Source: Flavobacteriales bacterium
GTDB lineage: Bacteria > Bacteroidota > Bacteroidia > Flavobacteriales_D > Crocinitomicaceae
Reading direction: 5' to 3'
DNA length: 61,081 nt
NCBI GenBank assembly: GCA_947380375.1
Contig: CANCQX010000004.1
Span: 1 to 61,081, forward strand
The translations under genes were made by a program, and so were the position numbers. Every line of letters begins with the position of its first letter. Position 1 is the stretch's first letter. Below are positions 29,689-56,708 of the stretch, one piece after another. The notes under the pieces are model-generated. The model had not been told where the DNA came from and made no database searches. It saw only the letters and a program-made list of their open reading frames with translations.

Positions 29689-30450
29689 TCATTCTTTCCA
29701 AAGTACTGTTGCAGATGCTTGGGCTGTTGGCATAATTGTTAAATCATTAATTGTAACGTGTTTTGGACGTGTTGCGACAAAGTATATTGTTTCAGCAATA
29801 TCATTAGCCAATAATGGTTGAAATCCTTCATAAACACTAGTCGCAATTTCTTTATCGCCTTTGAATCTTACTATAGAAAACTCGGTGTCAGCAGCACCTG
29901 GAGCAATATTTGTAACTTTAATTGAGTGCTCGACTAAATCGATACGCATCGCTTTTGATAATGCATCAACTGCATGTTTTGTAGCACAATATACATTTCC
30001 ACTTGGATAAACTTCTTTTCCAGCAATACTTCCTAAATTGAAAATATGACCTTTCTTATTTTTCTTCAAAAAAGGCACAATTGCCTTAGTTATATAAAGT
30101 AGTCCTTTTATATTTGTATCGATCATTCTTTCCCAATCTTCAACGATACCAGAATCAATAGGGTCTCGACCTACAGCTAAACCTGCATTATTAATTAATA
30201 TTTCTATTTTAGAAGTAATTTCTAACGAAAGACTTCCGATTGACTCGTTAACTTCTTTTAATTTTCTGACATCGAAGCAAAGTATTTCAATCTTTACTCC
30301 AAATTGAGATGTTAATTTAGATTTTAAATTTTCAAGTCGATCACGTCGTCTACCGGTCAAAATTAAATCCCAACCATTTTGAGCAAATAGGTTAGCACAA
30401 GCTTCTCCAAATCCTGATGTTGAACCTGTTATAAATATATATTTATTCAT
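29689..30450 (-). CDS. SDR-family NAD(P)-dependent oxidoreductase (YdfG-like)
   Basis: 253-residue classical short-chain dehydrogenase. The cofactor motif TGSTSGFG lies at residues 8-15, NNAG at about 90, the catalytic Ser in FNLGSIAG, and the catalytic Tyr and Lys in YCATK. A basic TGRRRDR segment after beta-2 points to NADP. The overall sequence resembles the YdfG 3-hydroxy acid/serine dehydrogenase group, but the substrate cannot be assigned. Its start overlaps the end of the upstream membrane-protein gene by 8 bases, which places it as third gene of a minus-strand unit. Confidence 0.88.
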   Translation of the reverse strand: MNKYIFITGSTSGFGEACANLFAQNGWDLILTGRRRDRLENLKSKLTSQFGVKIEILCFDVRKLKEVNESIGSLSLEITSKIEILINNAGLAVGRDPIDSGIVEDWERMIDTNIKGLLYITKAIVPFLKKNKKGHIFNLGSIAGKEVYPSGNVYCATKHAVDALSKAMRIDLVEHSIKVTNIAPGAADTEFSIVRFKGDKEIATSVYEGFQPLLANDIAETIYFVATRPKHVTINDLTIMPTAQASATVLWKE

Positions 30451-31915
30451 GTTTTTTTTTCATTTTTGAAGGATTGATAATAATTGCCCCAACTAAAAAT
30501 AATGCAAGTTGTGCAGGAAATCTAAATCGAACTATTGCGCCCAAAACGGGTGTAGTCCAGCCAATTAGTAGTAATAATAAAGTAGCAAAAAGTAACAAGC
30601 TAATAATTATTCCTCTGGTTTTTTTATCAATTTCCTTTTTTAAATAGACGGATATTAAAATAAATATTGAAAGTACCCATACTTCAAACATAGCTGGATA
30701 CATTAAAAAACTTCCATTGTCATTTGGAAAGGGTCTAAATAAAGTATTAATTAAAGCTTCAGGTATATTTTTAATTAGTTGAAGAGTTGAATTATTAATA
30801 TTTGTAGTTTTTATATAGCTATTAGTTCCTGGCATAATTATATGAATTCGCCAACTTTTTACAATTGAATTGAGAGTTGTATCGTATGGTATTTTTGATT
30901 GATCATCTGGAATAACAATTGCTTTTGAAGGTTTGATAAGTTGAACGAAACCATCTTTTATTTTTATGTTTTTATAGTCCTCCGGTTTAAAATAATAAAA
31001 TCTATTTTTCCCATTATCTATAACGTGTATTCCTCCATGTCCAACATTTTCTAAATCAAATTGTTTTCGGGATAAATTTACTGTAATTGCTTTTGTTTTT
31101 GATGGGAATATTAAAATGTTAAAGACTAAAAGTATAGTAAAAAAAATAAAAGTGTAAATTAGATTGCTTTTAAATAAATAAATATATACAGTATAAAATA
31201 AGAAACTAGGTAAAAGGCATAAAAGTATGTAAGGTTTAAATAATATAAGTAAAATTAATCCCAATGCCCCAAAAAAACATCGTTTATTTTTAGCTTTTTT
31301 TATCAGTAAAGCTCTTGCTGTCAAACCAATACCTAAAATTAATAAAGGTTCTTTTAATATTCCTGAACTCCAAAATAGTAAACTTGGAAATAATAAAATT
31401 GAAAGAAAGAATAGCAGTGGATTTAATTTTGAGTAAGGAGCAAAAGCTTTGTGAAGTTGTTGAATTCCAATTAATGATAACCCACACATGATTATAGTAT
31501 GAACAAATGGTTCTCCAAATGAAATGAAGTGAATTAAACTATGAATTCTTATCGTATTTCTTGAATCATTAATAAATGTAAAATTTCCAGCATCCCATAT
31601 AAATGAGTTTTGCATATATTGATGAATCATTCTTGCATTGTCACCAATCCCTGTAAATAAAGCCAAAAAGTCACTTTTTGATTGAAAAAAAACAGAATAA
31701 AGTTGTTTACTTTCATTTAAAAATCGGATTGCATCAGAAAGTTCGTCAGGGTTTTTATTTGAATAAATATAAACATATGAAAAAATAAGTCCCATTGCTA
31801 TTTTTATAACAAATGCAAAAGGCATCGTCCATTTAGGAGTATCTTCAATTTGTAGGTGTTTTGAGTACCTGAAGATAATTAAAAAGATAAAGAAATATAA
31901 AATTGAAATTATCAT
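30443..31915 (-). CDS. Multi-spanning membrane protein of unknown function (paralogue B)
   Basis: 490 residues with about ten hydrophobic segments and one hydrophilic loop (about residues 255-390), probably periplasmic. The most conserved stretches shared with the upstream gene are LIHFISFGEPFVH, SLLFWSSGILKEPLL, NLSRKQFDLENVGHGG, LFRPFPNDNGS and GWTTPVLGAIVRFR. The layout resembles polytopic polysaccharide polymerases or GT-C glycosyltransferases, but I do not recognise a catalytic signature and do not assign a function. It overlaps its paralogue by 4 bases (ATGA) and the SDR gene by 8 bases, so the three are translated from one message. Confidence 0.7.
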   Translation of the reverse strand: MIISILYFFIFLIIFRYSKHLQIEDTPKWTMPFAFVIKIAMGLIFSYVYIYSNKNPDELSDAIRFLNESKQLYSVFFQSKSDFLALFTGIGDNARMIHQYMQNSFIWDAGNFTFINDSRNTIRIHSLIHFISFGEPFVHTIIMCGLSLIGIQQLHKAFAPYSKLNPLLFFLSILLFPSLLFWSSGILKEPLLILGIGLTARALLIKKAKNKRCFFGALGLILLILFKPYILLCLLPSFLFYTVYIYLFKSNLIYTFIFFTILLVFNILIFPSKTKAITVNLSRKQFDLENVGHGGIHVIDNGKNRFYYFKPEDYKNIKIKDGFVQLIKPSKAIVIPDDQSKIPYDTTLNSIVKSWRIHIIMPGTNSYIKTTNINNSTLQLIKNIPEALINTLFRPFPNDNGSFLMYPAMFEVWVLSIFILISVYLKKEIDKKTRGIIISLLLFATLLLLLIGWTTPVLGAIVRFRFPAQLALFLVGAIIINPSKMKKKHE

Positions 31916-33387
31916 TTTTTCAACTCTGTTTTTTTATTGGTATTAAATAAAAGTGTAGCAATAAGTAAAATAGCTAATTGTGCAGGTAAACGATACCTAT
32001 AAATTGCACCGATTATAGGAGTTGTCCAACCTATTATTATTAATAAAAATAATGAAAATATAATTAGACTAGCAATTAATCCAATTTCTTGTTTACTTAA
32101 TTTTCGTCTTTTGTAAATTGAATACATTAGAAATAATGTAATTATCCAAGTTTCAATCATTGCTGGATATTTAAGTGTGCTTCCAGGATCACTAGGAAAA
32201 GGTCTGAAATAACTATTCAATAATGCTTCTGGAATGTTTATTATTAATTGAGAAAAAGAGTTATTTATGGGTGTAGTTTTTATGTAGCTTAAAGCTCCAT
32301 TTACATTATAAGTGATAATTCTATTTTTATTGTCTGGAATATATATGTGAGTTTTAGGTTTATATTTATGTTCTCGAGATACAATTAAGCAAGGTGTAGG
32401 CTTTATAACTTTTACAATACTGTCTTTTTTATTGATAATTAGAGTCTCATAATCTTTATGTTCAAAATAAATGTAACTAGTATCACCTTTGATATATAGT
32501 CCTCCTTTTCCGAGATGATCAAAATCGTATTGTTTTCTTGAAATATTTTCAACTAATTTTTCTCGTTGTCCAGGAAAAAGCACTATGATCGATAGTCCAA
32601 TTAAGAAAAAAGTTAGTATGCTAATTAAAAGTTTAGCTTTAAAAATGTATTTATAAAGGATATAAAAAATAGTTGAAGGAATCATGCAGAGCAAGACATA
32701 AGGCTTAATACTTAGTAAAATTATTATTCCAACAAAACCTAAAATGATACGTTTTAATAATAATTCTGGAATTAATAATGCTCTAATTAAAATGGATAAG
32801 CCTAAAAATAAAAAGGGTTCTTTTAAAATTCCAGAAGTCCAAAACAATAAACTTGGAAAAAGTAAGAGGATTAAAAAAAAAGTAAATGGTTCTAAAGTAG
32901 TATATGGTTTAAATGCTATAAAAAGATTTTTGAGTCCAATTAAAGAAATAAAACACATGAAAAGTGAATGGATTATAGGTTTACCAAAAGAAATAAAATG
33001 AATTAAACTCTGAATTTTAATAATATTTCTAGAGTCATTAGCAATCATAATATTTTGAGTATCCCAAAATTCCGTTTGACTTAAATATTTTTTTACAAAT
33101 AACATTTCGTCCCCAAATCCAAATAATAATGAGAAATAATCTTTTGGGGATTCATTATAAACATTTCGAAGTATTGCACCATCTGATAAAAAACGCATAG
33201 TATCAGATGGAATAAGATTATTACTGTCAGGATGTAAATACTTCGCTAAAAAAATTACTGCAACTACTATTTTAATAGTAAATGCTATTGGCATAGACCA
33301 TACTGGTAAATTTTTTAGTTGTAAAATAGACCAATATCTGAAGGCAAAAATAAATGCTAAAAAATATGTAATTTCTAAAAGATACAC
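31912..33387 (-). CDS. Multi-spanning membrane protein of unknown function (paralogue A)
   Basis: 491 residues, GTG start, first gene of the three-gene minus-strand unit. It is collinear with paralogue B along its whole length: SLIHFISFGKPIIH, SLLFWTSGILKEPFL, NISRKQYDFDHLGKGG, YFRPFPSDPGS and GWTTPIIGAIYRYR. About ten hydrophobic segments flank a hydrophilic loop at about residues 260-395. The loop carries a short extra segment relative to paralogue B. No known domain is recognised. Conservation of the FW(S/T)SGILKEP and RPFP.D.GS motifs between two diverged copies argues for functional residues. Confidence 0.7.
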   Translation of the reverse strand: MYLLEITYFLAFIFAFRYWSILQLKNLPVWSMPIAFTIKIVVAVIFLAKYLHPDSNNLIPSDTMRFLSDGAILRNVYNESPKDYFSLLFGFGDEMLFVKKYLSQTEFWDTQNIMIANDSRNIIKIQSLIHFISFGKPIIHSLFMCFISLIGLKNLFIAFKPYTTLEPFTFFLILLLFPSLLFWTSGILKEPFLFLGLSILIRALLIPELLLKRIILGFVGIIILLSIKPYVLLCMIPSTIFYILYKYIFKAKLLISILTFFLIGLSIIVLFPGQREKLVENISRKQYDFDHLGKGGLYIKGDTSYIYFEHKDYETLIINKKDSIVKVIKPTPCLIVSREHKYKPKTHIYIPDNKNRIITYNVNGALSYIKTTPINNSFSQLIINIPEALLNSYFRPFPSDPGSTLKYPAMIETWIITLFLMYSIYKRRKLSKQEIGLIASLIIFSLFLLIIIGWTTPIIGAIYRYRLPAQLAILLIATLLFNTNKKTELKK

Positions 33388-33460
33388 TCGTTTTAATTAT
33401 GTCTCAAAAATAAGAATAAACATTGGTTAAGTTAAGCGTCAATTTGCCTAATTTTTTACC

Positions 33461-33499
33461 GACATTTTGTCAGTTTTTACGGATGGCATAAACATTGAT
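33461..33499 (+). promoter_or_regulatory. Sigma-54-like promoter with palindromic upstream site ahead of htpG
   Basis: TGGCATAAACATTGAT at 33484-33499 resembles the -24/-12 consensus TGGCAC-N5-TTGCW: GG and TTG are correctly spaced, with the final C replaced by A. The palindrome GACATTTTGTC (33461-33471) lies directly upstream and no TAnnTTTG box is present before the ATG at 33531. Transcription would start near 33509. Confidence 0.5.
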
Positions 33500-33530
33500 T
33501 AAGTGTAACAAATTAAATTAAATTTAAATT

Positions 33531-35420
33531 ATGAGAACAGGTCAAATCAATGTCCAAACGGAAAATATTTTTCCAATTATCAAAAAATTCTTGTATTCAG
33601 ATCATGAGATTTTCTTACGAGAATTAGTTTCGAATGCTGTAGATGCAACTCAGAAATTAAAATTTTTATCATCAAATGGTGAGTTTAAAGGTGAATTGGG
33701 AGAGTTGAAAGTAGAGGTTATTCTTGACGTAAATGAAAAAACGTTAACAATTCGTGATAGAGGAATTGGAATGACTGAAGAAGAAATTGATAAATATATA
33801 AATCAGATTGCATTTTCTGGTGCTGAAGAGTTTTTGCAAAAATATAAAGGTCAAGAAGGTGCAGAACAAATAATCGGACATTTTGGTTTAGGTTTTTATT
33901 CTGGTTTCATGGTAGCAGAAAAAGTTCAAATTAGAACTCTTTCACGTCATGAAGGAGCTAAAGCTGTTCAATGGGAAAGTAATGGTTCTCCTGAATTTAC
34001 AATTACTGAAATTGAAAAAGAAGATCGTGGAACAGATATAGTACTTTTTATTTCTGAAGATTCAAAAGAATTTTTAGAAAAAGCAAGAGTTTCTGGAATC
34101 TTAAATAAATATTGTAAATTTTTACCAACTCCAGTAATTTTCGGAACAAAAACGGAATATATTGATAGTCCTTCAGGTGAAAAAGATGATAAAGGAAATG
34201 TTAAAAGAGAGGCGATTGAAGTTGTTAATCAGATTAATAATCCAGAACCAGCTTGGACAAAAGCTCCGATTGATTTGAAAAATGATGATTATGACGCTTT
34301 TTACAGAGAGTTATACCCAACATCTTTCGATAGCCCTTTATTTCATATTCATTTAAATGTTGATTACCCTTTTAATTTAACAGGAATTTTATATTTCCCT
34401 AAAATCAAGGAGAATGTAGAAGTTCAACGTAATAAAATTAATCTTTATTCAAATCAAGTTTTCATTACAGACAGTGTAGCTGAAATAGTACCTGAATTCT
34501 TGACTTTGCTTCATGGTGTAATTGATTCTCCAGATATTCCTTTAAATGTTTCAAGATCTTATTTACAAAGCGATAGTAATGTAAAGAAAATTTCAGCACA
34601 TATTACTAAAAAAGTAGTAGATAAATTAGCTGAAATGTTTAAGAAAGATCGTAAAGATTTTGAAGAAAAATGGGATGATTTACAAATTTTTGTTCAATAC
34701 GGAACTCTTTCTGATGAAAAGTTTTCAGAGAAAGCAAAATCTTTTTCTTTAGTTAAAAATACAGCAGGTACATATTATACAATTGAAGAATATAAAGAGA
34801 AAATAACAGCTTTACAAACTGATAAAGAAGGGAAAACTATAATTCTTTATACAAACAATCCAGATGAACAGTTTTCTTTTGTGAAAAAAGCTACGGATAG
34901 AGGGTATGAAGTATTACATTTAGACGGACCTTTAGTTTCTCATTGGATTTCTAAAATGGAACAATCGATTGAAAACATTTCGTTTGTTAGAGTTGATTCT
35001 GATACTTTAGATAAATTAATTAAAAAAGATGAAGAATTACCTTCAGTATTGTCAAAAGAAGATGAAGAAATATTGAAACCTTTATTTGAAAGTACTGTTA
35101 ACAAAGATAAATTTCATATTCAATTTGAGAGTATGAGTGCTAATGATGCCCCGATTGTAATTACTCAGCCTGAATTCATCCGTAGAATGATGGAACAACA
35201 AAAAATGGGTGGTGCAGGTTTCTTTGGTGCTTTTCCTGAAACTTACAATATGGTTGTAAATGGAAATCACTCAAAAATATCTGAAGTTTTAAATGCTTCG
35301 AGTGAAGGTGATAAAACTGCTAAAGTTAAGCAATTGACAGATTTAGCTTTACTTTCACAAGGTATGTTAAAAGGTGAAGCATTGAGTAATTTTATCGATA
35401 GAAGTATTGAGTTGGTATAA
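33531..35420 (+). CDS. htpG: Molecular chaperone HtpG (Hsp90)
   Basis: Cytosolic ATP-dependent dimeric chaperone. At 629 residues it has the full bacterial Hsp90 layout: an N-terminal GHKL ATPase domain (Glu in FLRELVSNAVDA, the DRGIGMT lid region and GHFGLGFYSGFMV), a middle domain with the conserved catalytic Arg in NVSRSYLQ, and a C-terminal dimerisation domain. There is an unusually acidic spacer (ESTVNKDKF region, about 520) before the C-terminal domain. Transcription is probably stress-controlled through the unusual upstream element. A terminator follows the gene. Confidence 0.97.
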   Translation: MRTGQINVQTENIFPIIKKFLYSDHEIFLRELVSNAVDATQKLKFLSSNGEFKGELGELKVEVILDVNEKTLTIRDRGIGMTEEEIDKYINQIAFSGAEEFLQKYKGQEGAEQIIGHFGLGFYSGFMVAEKVQIRTLSRHEGAKAVQWESNGSPEFTITEIEKEDRGTDIVLFISEDSKEFLEKARVSGILNKYCKFLPTPVIFGTKTEYIDSPSGEKDDKGNVKREAIEVVNQINNPEPAWTKAPIDLKNDDYDAFYRELYPTSFDSPLFHIHLNVDYPFNLTGILYFPKIKENVEVQRNKINLYSNQVFITDSVAEIVPEFLTLLHGVIDSPDIPLNVSRSYLQSDSNVKKISAHITKKVVDKLAEMFKKDRKDFEEKWDDLQIFVQYGTLSDEKFSEKAKSFSLVKNTAGTYYTIEEYKEKITALQTDKEGKTIILYTNNPDEQFSFVKKATDRGYEVLHLDGPLVSHWISKMEQSIENISFVRVDSDTLDKLIKKDEELPSVLSKEDEEILKPLFESTVNKDKFHIQFESMSANDAPIVITQPEFIRRMMEQQKMGGAGFFGAFPETYNMVVNGNHSKISEVLNASSEGDKTAKVKQLTDLALLSQGMLKGEALSNFIDRSIELV

Positions 35421-35502: not shown

Positions 35503-36282
35503 TTGTTTAAATGGATTTTTGCAGTTGGTGGATTTTTCTTATTAGGAAGGAGATTTTCAGGGGCTTTTTTAGGTTTTATTGTAGGTGGCTTTATTGATAA
35601 TTATCAAACTGTTATAAGTAAAGCAAAAGCTCAAGCTAAATCAGAAGGACGTGAGTTCAAATCAGAAGATCTTTTTCAATATTATCAACAAAGATCTTCT
35701 CAAAATGATGTCCCAACAATAATTATGGCTCTTTCAGCAGCCGTAATGAAGGCGGATGGAAAAGTAGTGAAATCAGAATTGGATTATGTAAAGCAATTTC
35801 TGAAACAACAATTTGGAGAAAATTATTCCAATACTCATTTACAAACATTAAAGCATTTTTTAGAATCAGGAGAGATTCCTTTGGATCAAATCTGTTCAGA
35901 TATAAAAATGAGAATGCAGCCAGAAGTAAGGATGCAACTACTTCATTATATGTTTGGTATAGCTAAAGCAGATGGTTTGGTTTCAGAATCAGAATTGAAT
36001 GTGATGAATGTTATTGCATCAATGATGGGTGTTTCTAATGTTGATTTTGAGAGTATCAAAAATATGTTTTATAGAAATGCCGATTCTGATTATAAAATTT
36101 TAGGAATTGACTCATCAGCTACAGATGATGAGGTTAAGAAAGCATATAGAAAAATGGCAATTAAGTTTCATCCTGATAAAGTAGCGTCAATGGGTGAGGA
36201 ATATGAAAAGGGTGCTAAAGAAAAATTTCAACAAATTCAAAGTGCATACGACAATTTGAAGAAAACTAGAGGTATTAAATAA
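35503..36282 (+). CDS. Membrane-anchored TerB/J-domain co-chaperone (DjlA-like)
   Basis: 259 residues. An N-terminal hydrophobic, glycine-rich segment (about 1-30) probably anchors the protein. A TerB-like helical domain follows (about 65-185, with AVMKADGKV and FGIAKADGLV repeats that carry the acidic TerB pattern). A C-terminal J domain (about 190-255) contains the diagnostic HPD tripeptide in KFHPDKV. The domain order matches DjlA, which stimulates DnaK ATPase from the inner membrane. The start is a TTG at 35503, the only start that keeps the membrane segment. It follows htpG after a terminator and so probably has its own weak promoter. Confidence 0.88.
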   Translation: MFKWIFAVGGFFLLGRRFSGAFLGFIVGGFIDNYQTVISKAKAQAKSEGREFKSEDLFQYYQQRSSQNDVPTIIMALSAAVMKADGKVVKSELDYVKQFLKQQFGENYSNTHLQTLKHFLESGEIPLDQICSDIKMRMQPEVRMQLLHYMFGIAKADGLVSESELNVMNVIASMMGVSNVDFESIKNMFYRNADSDYKILGIDSSATDDEVKKAYRKMAIKFHPDKVASMGEEYEKGAKEKFQQIQSAYDNLKKTRGIK

Positions 36283-37831: not shown

Positions 37832-38701
37832 ATGAGACAGCTTAAAATCGTAAAACAAGTAACCAACAGAGAAACTGCCTCATTGGATAAATACTTACAA
37901 GAAATCGCTCGAGAAGATATGATTTCTGCAGACGAGGAGGTTCGTTTAGCTATATTAATCAGGCAAGGTGATAAGAAGGCTTTGGAACGTTTGACAAGAG
38001 CTAATTTAAGGTTTGTAGTTTCAGTTTCAAAGCAATATCAGAATCAAGGATTAGCACTTCCTGATTTAATTAATGAAGGAAATATGGGACTAATTAAAGC
38101 GGCAGAACGTTTTGATGAAACGAGAGGTTTTAAATTTATTTCTTATGCAGTTTGGTGGATTCGTCAATCTATTTTACAGGCATTGGCAGAACAAGCTAGA
38201 ATCGTTCGATTACCACTTAATAAAATTGGTGTAATTAATAAAATAAATAAAGCATATTCTGAGCTTGAACAAAAATATGAAAGACCACCTTCAGTTGATG
38301 AATTGGCAGATTTGTTAGAATGTTCTAATGAAGATGTAAGACAGTCTTTAGCTAGTAATGGAAGGCATGTTTCAATGGATGCTTCTTTGGTAGAAGGTGA
38401 TGAATCGTCTTCAAATATGTATGATTTATTGCCAAATGATAGTTTACCAAGTCCTGAAAATGAATTGGTAGTAGAGTCACTTCGTAAAGATATTGAAAGA
38501 TCGTTAACTACCTTAACTTCTAGAGAGGGTGATGTTGTTAGAATGTATTTTGGTTTAAGCGGAAGGTATCCGTTAACACTTGAAGAAATTGGTTTAAAAT
38601 TCGATTTGACTAGAGAAAGAGTTAGACAAATAAAAGAAAAGGCAATCAGAAGGTTGAAACATACCTCCCGAAGTAGAATGCTTCAAACTTACCTAGGTTA
38701 A
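37832..38701 (+). CDS. rpoD: Principal RNA polymerase sigma factor (RpoD/SigA, short Bacteroidota form)
   Basis: 289-residue group 1-type sigma-70 factor. Region 1.2 starts [15 protein letters not shown], region 2 has [17 protein letters not shown] and the -10 recognition helix ending [10 protein letters not shown], region 3 follows, and region 4 ends with [29 protein letters not shown] for -35 recognition, which I cite here only by its ends. Region 1.1 is missing, as in other Bacteroidota principal sigma factors, whose altered promoter preference (TTG/TAnnTTTG) agrees with the boxes listed here. The upstream 254 bases are AT-rich with no clear promoter. The stop overlaps the priA stop by 4 bases. 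Confidence 0.95.
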
Positions 38702-55415: not shown

Positions 55416-55484
55416 AAACAATTAATGGCATAAGTTTTGATTAATCCCAACTATAAATTAGTGAACTAAAAAATACCCTGCGAT

Positions 55485-55532: not shown

Positions 55533-56708
55533 ATGAGCAAGATATTAATTATAGATGATGAACGTGCAATAAGAAGAGCACTTCGTGAAATTTTAGAATT
55601 CGAAGAATTTGAAGTGGTAGAAGCTGAAAATGGAAAAGAAGGATTTGAAAAAGCAAGTTCAACTAGTTTTGATATGATTTTTTGTGATATCAAAATGCCT
55701 CAAATGGATGGAATGGAAGTTTTAGATGAATTGTTAAAAGCTAAAATTGACACTCCTGTCATCATGATTAGTGGACATGGAAATGTTGAAACTGCTGTTC
55801 AAGCTATAAAAAAAGGTGCTTTTGATTTCATTGAAAAACCGTTAGACTTGAATCGAATTTTAGTTACTATCAGAAATGCGAAAGATAGAACTGTTTTAGT
55901 AGAAGAGACAAAACAACTTAAAACAACTGTTAAAAGATACAAAGGGAATTCTATTATTGGTGAAGCGCCAGGCATTTTGAAGATTAAAGAAATGATTGAA
56001 AAAGTTGGGCCTTCCGATGCACGTGTTTTAATTACTGGAGGAAATGGAACTGGAAAAGAATTAGTTGCCCGTTCAATTCATGATAATTCTAACAGACGAA
56101 AAATGCAATTTATTGAGGTTAATTGCGCTGCAATACCAAGTGAATTGATTGAAAGTGAATTGTTTGGTCATGAAAGAGGTGCGTTTACATCTGCTGTAAA
56201 AGATAAAAAAGGGAAATTTGAATTAGCCTCTGGAGGAACATTGTTTTTGGACGAAATTGGTGATATGAGTTTATCTGCTCAAGCCAAAGTGTTAAGAGCT
56301 TTACAAGAGAATGTTATTCAACGAGTAGGAGGTGAGAAGGATATTAAAGTAGATTGTAGAATTGTTGCTGCGACGAATAAAGATCTCAGAAAAGAAATCG
56401 AAGAGGGACGTTTCAGAGAAGATTTATACCATCGATTAGCCGTAATATTGATTCACGTCCCATCTTTAAATGAAAGAAGAGACGATATACCTGTTTTGGC
56501 TGAACATTTTTTGACAATGGTTTGTGCTGAACACGGAATTCCAAGAAAAGAATTAAAAGAAGAAGCTTTACTAGAGCTTCAAAAAACGAATTGGACAGGT
56601 AATATTAGAGAATTAAGAAATATTATTGAACGTTTGGTGATTTTGTGTGATTCAAAAATAACGGATGAAGATGTAAAATTGTTTTCTAATCCTAAAGTGA
56701 ATGCTTAA
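55533..56708 (+). CDS. Sigma-54-dependent response regulator (NtrC family) without a C-terminal HTH
   Basis: 391 residues from the ATG at 55533 (MSKILIIDDE). The receiver domain (1-120) has the acidic pair Asp8/Asp9, the phosphoacceptor Asp52 in CDIKMP and the conserved Lys in EKPLD. The AAA+ domain (about 140-375) has Walker A GGNGTGKE, a sigma-54-contacting loop reading GAFTSA in place of GAFTGA, Walker B GGTLFLDEIGDM and the sensor-2 WTGNIRELRNIIERL. The protein ends about 20 residues later, at KLFSNPKVNA, with no Fis-type helix-turn-helix. Typical NtrC proteins run to 450-470 residues. It may activate without specific DNA binding or through a partner. No sensor kinase is adjacent. Confidence 0.92.
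   Translation: MSKILIIDDERAIRRALREILEFEEFEVVEAENGKEGFEKASSTSFDMIFCDIKMPQMDGMEVLDELLKAKIDTPVIMISGHGNVETAVQAIKKGAFDFIEKPLDLNRILVTIRNAKDRTVLVEETKQLKTTVKRYKGNSIIGEAPGILKIKEMIEKVGPSDARVLITGGNGTGKELVARSIHDNSNRRKMQFIEVNCAAIPSELIESELFGHERGAFTSAVKDKKGKFELASGGTLFLDEIGDMSLSAQAKVLRALQENVIQRVGGEKDIKVDCRIVAATNKDLRKEIEEGRFREDLYHRLAVILIHVPSLNERRDDIPVLAEHFLTMVCAEHGIPRKELKEEALLELQKTNWTGNIRELRNIIERLVILCDSKITDEDVKLFSNPKVNA

Follow-up and report, generated by a model that had tools for sequence, protein, structure and literature searches.

A palindrome and a sigma-54-type promoter in fixed register before htpG of a Flavobacteriales bacterium, and a candidate activator encoded near groESL

The window analyzed here, a stretch of 61,081 nucleotides from a Flavobacteriales bacterium, harbors the Hsp90 chaperone gene htpG, which is preceded by a palindrome and a sigma-54-type promoter (Table 1). 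The first-pass annotation had read the palindrome core, GACATTTTGTC, at 33461-33471 just upstream of TGGCAT-N5-TTGAT and had found no principal-sigma box before the gene. Letters and coordinates are correct (TGGCAT at 33484-33489 and TTGAT at 33495-33499), and TAnnTTTG is absent from the + strand of 33330-33531. Exactly 10 bases separate the GG (33485-33486) from the G at 33497, which is the sigma-54 spacing, and 12 bases lie between GACATTTTGTC and TGGCATAAACATTGA. The -12 pair of the htpG box is GA, not GC; in relatives, too, TTG is most often followed by A (25/40). On the basis of sigma-54 geometry, htpG is predicted to have a leader of ~22 bases, with the centre of the palindrome at about -43 relative to the predicted start.

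Two adjoining and seemingly related membrane-protein frames (by eye) occupy 30443-33387 on the - strand, divergent from htpG. The palindrome could also serve the nearer of them, because the 143-base intergenic region is common to this frame and htpG. The frame right after htpG (35503-36282, +) has a DnaJ-domain-like C-terminus by eye and is possibly co-expressed with it, and a primary-sigma-factor-like frame (37832-38701, +; by eye) lies 2.4 kb past htpG.

Table 1. Positions of the features at htpG and of two genes for predicted sigma-54 activators
Feature	Position	Strand	Basis
Palindrome CGACATTTTGTCA	33460..33472		TGNCA-N3-TGNCA with 1 mismatch; core 33461-33471; predicted activator site
Sigma-54-type promoter TGGCATAAACATTGA	33484..33498	+	-24 GG 33485-33486, N10, -12 GA 33497-33498
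Predicted transcription start, ~33509	33507..33511	+	sigma-54 geometry, 12 bases after the -12 G
htpG (Hsp90 chaperone), 629 aa	33531..35420	+	open reading frame; PF00183, E 5.5e-44
Receiver-AAA+ sigma-54 activator	55533-56708	+	PF00072, PF00158; no HTH match
miaB-linked EBP, 413 aa	contig C25, outside the window; L067 7944-9185	-	PF00158, HTH_8

Taken alone, the palindrome and the box are unremarkable in the window, because their counts are within chance. The exact form of GACANNNTGTC occurs once (0.46 expected from composition), forms with up to one mismatch occur six times (13.65 in shuffles), and TGGCAY-N5-TTG with up to one mismatch occurs 12 times (20.46 in shuffles). Unlike either half, the pair in fixed register is above chance. 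The 3.05-Mb source genome (G000) has three sites for the two-part pattern, at htpG, grpE, and the lemA operon, and one for its reversed control. Within the phylum, 66 of 198 genomes have matches. The 49 genomes that share the class of the source genome, which is taken to be Bacteroidia from the labels of near relatives, yield 43 matches; the reversed control yields 15. Of the 43, 32 fall at a spacing of 12-14, with 16 spacing values allowed. Judged by eye from their N-termini, the genes after these 32 elements are htpG (10), grpE (7), dnaK (7), clpB (4), and lemA (2), such that 30 elements precede chaperone genes or lemA and two precede nothing recognised. The phylum-wide reach suggested in the first-pass annotation is not borne out by the sample: in other classes, 10 of 42 matches fall at spacing 12-14 versus 7.9 expected if spacings were uniform, although the pair does precede one lon (L048, by eye), a Bax1-I gene assigned by Pfam (L044), and a second Bax1-I gene in L045, a near copy of L044. 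Matches at spacing 18 (L017, L023, L042, and L043) appear coding-sequence-like by eye. Two matches at spacing 16 (L050 and L051), from two close relatives, have the same 147-aa frame downstream.

A sequence-only model of the pair, R1, was built from the 32 elements, with two of them (L029 and L034) kept though no recognised chaperone gene follows. The L034 element is complete (GACATTCTGTC, TGGCATAGGAATTG, near position 1038), yet what follows is not a recognised protein gene and may be a small RNA or a short protein. Run on 50 class genomes (48 families), R1 gives 72 sites, six of these sites being training sites, in 37 genomes, as opposed to five sites in 5 of 50 genomes for a letter-reversed decoy; an R1 site is absent from 13 of the 50. 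Five of the 72 sites have no open frame in the stretch, leaving 67 for blastp against reference proteins, and 57 of these match: HtpG (19), GrpE (13), TrxA (8), Hsp20 (5), DnaK (4), Lon (3), LemA (3), FtsH (1), and GroES (1). L223, the weakest of four Lon assignments (E 8e-6), is FtsH by Pfam. A domain scan of the targets without a blastp match, from which 3 of 10 were left out, adds ClpP (twice), SecA, a trypsin-like protease, and a rhomboid, as well as two misfits, a DUF445 protein and a cyclic-nucleotide-binding protein. Overall, chaperone, protease, thioredoxin, LemA, or secretion genes are downstream of 62 of the 72 sites. The earlier claim of like pairs before other heat-shock genes thus holds at its core, such pairs being widespread in the class.

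In the source genome, R1 gives seven weaker matches down to E 10, all ranked under the three training sites. Four are at mutL, trxA, lon, and dnaK; the other three lie inside a long frame, on the opposite strand at lemA, and at a contig edge. Measured against TGNCA-N3-TGNCA, the palindrome has no mismatch at lemA and trxA and one at htpG, grpE, lon, and mutL. With 0-1 palindrome mismatch, the pair is present in this genome at htpG, grpE, lemA, trxA, and lon. At dnaK and groES, a sigma-54-like box is accompanied by a poor palindrome (four and three mismatches, respectively), and hsp20 and clpB were not located in the source genome. The weaker element before mutL (contig C9, L076; E 0.13) precedes a repair gene and no chaperone gene.

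A set of promoters chosen by gene was obtained by seeking HtpG in the same 50 genomes, which gave 37 matches, one of which (G235, 35% identity) was left out. Box and palindrome, each with up to one mismatch and at a spacing of 11-13, occur together in 30 of the 36 htpG regions and in none of 200 shuffles, a count that is not fully independent, because TGNCA was generalised after the miaB promoters and R1 sites had been seen and because 19 of the htpG genes were already R1 matches. Counted singly, the palindrome with up to one mismatch is found at this spacing in 31 regions, a sigma-54-like box within two mismatches in 33, and TGGCA-N6-TTG without mismatch in 26. Three regions (G198, G240, and G220) have no box and carry TAnnTTTG in its place, two (G206 and G228) have the box and a poor palindrome, and in one (G012) an exact palindrome accompanies a weaker box. 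Within one mismatch, 28 of the 36 regions contain one palindrome, five contain two, and three contain none; no second conserved palindrome is found in the 200 bases upstream of htpG in the 36 regions.

The source genome encodes RpoN (PF04552, E 6.1e-52) and has four strong matches to sigma-54 activators of the enhancer-binding protein (EBP) type (PF00158), one of which is cut by a contig end. One EBP gene is found on contig C25 in the order miaB, EBP, lptE, a frame without a known name, secG, groES, and groEL. The miaB-linked EBP has no receiver domain; of its 413 residues, only 11 precede the PF00158 match, and the C-terminus is a Fis-type HTH (HTH_8, 368-409). The loop motif is GSFTGA in the source-genome EBP and, among 62 EBP sequences, GAFTGA in 34, GSFTGA in 27, and GSFTSA in one. 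The HTH is conserved, with a mean top-residue frequency of 0.84 over 62 sequences (61 of 112 loci plus the source genome), and it is present in seven genomes examined (G228, G220, G226, G208, G213, G232, and G204), a count from which G198, G240, and G235 were left out as no EBP frame was found in the stretch. The linker of ~100 aa contains a conserved segment at ~276-299 (SERE.LYK.LFDMK.DL.DLKKL) that has no Pfam match and is a candidate contact for restraint of the EBP.

Both the gene order and the EBP itself are conserved. Among 82 EBP loci, 80 of which come from the best 80 of at least 533 relatives (labelled mostly Flavobacteriales or Bacteroidetes), the full order miaB-EBP-lptE-secG-groES-groEL is found in 72, and eight of the other ten are cut by the locus end. 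L092 is without groESL and L109 without miaB and groESL within 6 kb, neither being explained by a contig end. An EBP ortholog is encoded in 49 of 50 class genomes (E 7.3e-109 or better), the missing genome being 69% complete, and rpoN is found in all 198 phylum genomes sampled. A 490-kb genome has kept rpoN and, at E<=1e-40, only the miaB-linked EBP, still beside miaB, with its loop drifted from GAFTGA to GSFTSA; R1 finds no convincing element in this genome (best E 3.7).

The palindrome recurs at the head of this cluster. TGNCA-N3-TGNCA precedes miaB in 76 of 77 loci among the best 80 of at least 533 relatives (shuffled mean 0.33). For the exact sites of the same best-80 set, TAnnTTTG lies at most 37 bases after the palindrome in 76 of 77 loci, and the palindrome ends 16-20 bases before it in 73 of 77, covering the -33 region of the sigma-A promoter from which the miaB-EBP-lptE-secG-groESL cluster is read. 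A wider class sample of 40 stretches, nine of which were left out (six without miaB, three at an edge), has the exact palindrome at miaB in 24 of 31 genomes versus 0.11 in shuffles and the palindrome with up to one mismatch in 26 of 31 versus 2.84. No such palindrome is found at miaB in the remaining five of the 31 (G204, G205, G207, G237, and G007). Site and regulator do not co-track cleanly across genomes: G007 has the htpG palindrome though none at miaB, and G206, G228, and G240 have a palindrome at miaB and none at htpG. The miaB site of L024 (spacing 15) had been a candidate sigma-54 promoter and was rejected, its box TATCTTTG being a TAnnTTTG primary promoter. Sigma-54 activation of the EBP operon at miaB was dropped for this reason, and repression of the sigma-A promoter is favoured.

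In 1.94 Mb covering 80 loci on both strands (best 80 of at least 533 relatives), there are 30 occurrences of the joint motif, all of them 50-100 bases before groES; the one in L098 is in T-rich sequence at a greater distance from the gene. In many groES promoters of L083-L162 just the right half, TGTCA(G), is left, and in several the -24/-12 spacing is one base shorter.

One activator gene, usually near groEL, is likely the master switch, because the pair precedes heat-shock genes in many relatives. That sigma-54 and the palindrome define a real regulon is very probable. What the sequences show is the pair with its spacing, the genes that it precedes, a palindrome before the EBP operon as well, and the conservation of the EBP and rpoN; on this reading htpG would be a member of a class-wide proteostasis regulon read by sigma-54 RNA polymerase. 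From these features we infer that the EBP binds the palindrome, that it represses its own operon, and that a heat signal and a restraint act on it. The dimer-sized TGNCA-N3-TGNCA, which precedes the -24 box by 11-13 bases, would be bound by an EBP dimer beside the polymerase; at about -43, the EBP would open the sigma-54 promoters of chaperone and protease genes. Bound to the same palindrome over -33 of its own sigma-A operon, it would limit its own synthesis, and free chaperone may hold it back. The miaB-linked EBP is probably the palindrome binder, and we judge it equally probable that a PspF-like EBP binds the palindrome, activates the chaperone genes, and restrains its own operon. For autorepression by itself the balance is even, and restraint by chaperone titration is doubtful. 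The broadest statement, that the whole class runs its heat-shock regulon via one receiver-less EBP beside groESL, with a single promoter-adjacent dimer site and a feedback loop, is tentative and somewhat short of an even chance.

The position of the palindrome invites a different explanation. The usual enhancer of an EBP is remote, ~80-150 bases upstream, and often comprises two or more sites. At htpG there is a single site with its centre near -43, and this lone promoter-adjacent site, unlike the usual remote enhancer, counts against an EBP. The palindrome might instead bind a separate repressor whose release under stress frees the sigma-54 promoters of the chaperone genes and, at the EBP operon, the sigma-A promoter, with the EBP activating from solution. 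Lying across -33 of a sigma-A promoter, the palindrome is in a repressor position, and it is nearer the sigma-54 promoters than enhancers usually are. However, the Fis-type HTH of the EBP would then have no evident site, because it is conserved and no second conserved palindrome exists upstream of htpG. At the chaperone promoters the palindrome is clear of the -24/-12 elements, and the cluster contains no repressor-like gene in the two genomes examined in full. A separate repressor is thus considered unlikely. Less likely still is that another EBP drives the sigma-54 promoters, with the palindrome serving an accessory factor. The source genome does have four strong EBP matches, weaker matches of like open-frame length recur in many class genomes, and the window itself encodes an example, the receiver-AAA+ protein of Table 1, which has a sigma-54-like box upstream. 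This protein should not bind the palindrome, because it is without an HTH, and the 490-kb genome makes do with the miaB-linked EBP as its sole match at E<=1e-40. The box before the receiver-AAA+ frame, TGGCATAAGTTTTG at 55426-55439, has no palindrome (six mismatches).

The box itself could be read by another sigma factor, of the ECF type or a sigma-A variant. The GA in place of GC at -12, the resemblance of TTTG to part of the sigma-A -7 box, and the apparent site at miaB in L024 that proved to be a TAnnTTTG promoter are all compatible with this. They are outweighed by the mismatch-free TGGCA-N6-TTG in 26 of 36 htpG regions, by the substitution of TAnnTTTG in the three regions without a box, by rpoN in 198 of 198 phylum genomes sampled, and by Flavobacterium psychrophilum, in which mapped starts and a -24/-12 motif assign the same genes to sigma-54 (PMC9723704), making another sigma factor highly improbable. 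Finally, either half of the element is within chance in the window, as a fortuitous resemblance at htpG would have it; the chance of this is negligible in view of 30 of 36 htpG promoters versus none in 200 shuffles and of 72 R1 sites versus five for the decoy.

A receiver-less EBP acting from the palindrome is retained as the preferred reading, against which weigh the degenerate palindromes at dnaK and groES of the source genome, the half sites at many groES promoters elsewhere, the 13 genomes without an R1 site, and the 490-kb genome with its drifted loop and no convincing element. Bacteroidia figure prominently among the bacteria of gut, soil, and sea, and to our knowledge no regulator of their heat-shock genes has been named. 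The literature search likewise listed no named Bacteroidia heat-shock regulator among its matches, and no report of the palindrome or of a miaB-linked activator among the same matches, most subscription papers being outside the search. A fixed site and a near-universal candidate activator make the question of this regulator directly addressable, and an EBP working from -43 would, if true, widen the known modes of sigma-54 activation.

The closest precedents come from the phylum itself. In F. psychrophilum, mapped starts with -24/-12 boxes (SM4 promoters) are described for groES, lon, dnaK, grpE-dnaJ, htpG, and clpB, the first five of which form one co-expression cluster (PMC9723704). The cluster responses given in the available part of that paper are to blood, osmotic pressure, plasma, and freshwater, heat not being among them; distinct activators are suggested for the clusters and none is named there. 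SM4 resembles the present system in its sigma-54 boxes at the same chaperone genes and differs in that, within that part, no activator is assigned to it (PMC9723704). The locus tags of a sigma-54 regulator (THC0290_0733) and LptE (0732) are close to that of groES (0729), and transcription of the regulator gene also starts at a separate SM5 promoter with a different box (PMC9723704). A start at SM5 would bypass repression at miaB, and this further promoter directly before the EBP gene is why autorepression, at first held slightly more probable, is now rated as evenly balanced. In silico sigma-54 regulons of Bacteroidota are enriched in GroEL/ES, GrpE, DnaK/J, and IbpA, and in Bacteroidia also in HSP90 (PMC12316311, which cites PMC2780778 for sigma-54-dependent grpE and groES). 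They share the chaperone targets and differ in that no activator is assigned in the portion of that paper drawn on here. The string "palindrom" is absent from the main text of PMC9723704 and of PMC12316311. The link of sigma-54 to Bacteroidota chaperones is thus not new (PMC9723704, PMC12316311). Because this control has already been published, what is new, as far as the literature search goes, is the site with its register, how wide the regulon is, and which activator is the candidate.

RpoH and CIRCE/HrcA exert heat-shock control with a different sigma factor and different sites, and they share their target genes with the palindrome regulon. If a single EBP does govern it, the system would be a sigma-54 counterpart of RpoH that has no remote enhancer and that free chaperone may restrain. 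PspF provides the nearest likeness for the activator. It autoregulates, its site overlapping the primary-sigma promoter of its own operon; the miaB-linked EBP operon is also read from a primary-sigma promoter that is overlapped by the site. PspF of Escherichia coli, a group 4 EBP, shares with the miaB-linked EBP the lack of a regulatory N-terminal domain, the AAA+ GAFTGA loop, and the C-terminal HTH (PMC7175178). The differences are the ~100-aa linker with its conserved LFDMK-like segment, one promoter-proximal site in place of remote enhancers, cytoplasmic chaperones among the targets, and no PspA-like partner identified here. For the site, the comparison is NorR, which recognizes GTCA-N3-TGAC. 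The geometry is the same, with two inverted 4-base arms around three bases. NorR differs in that it contains a GAF domain and works from enhancer sites upstream, three in number (PMC2941729).
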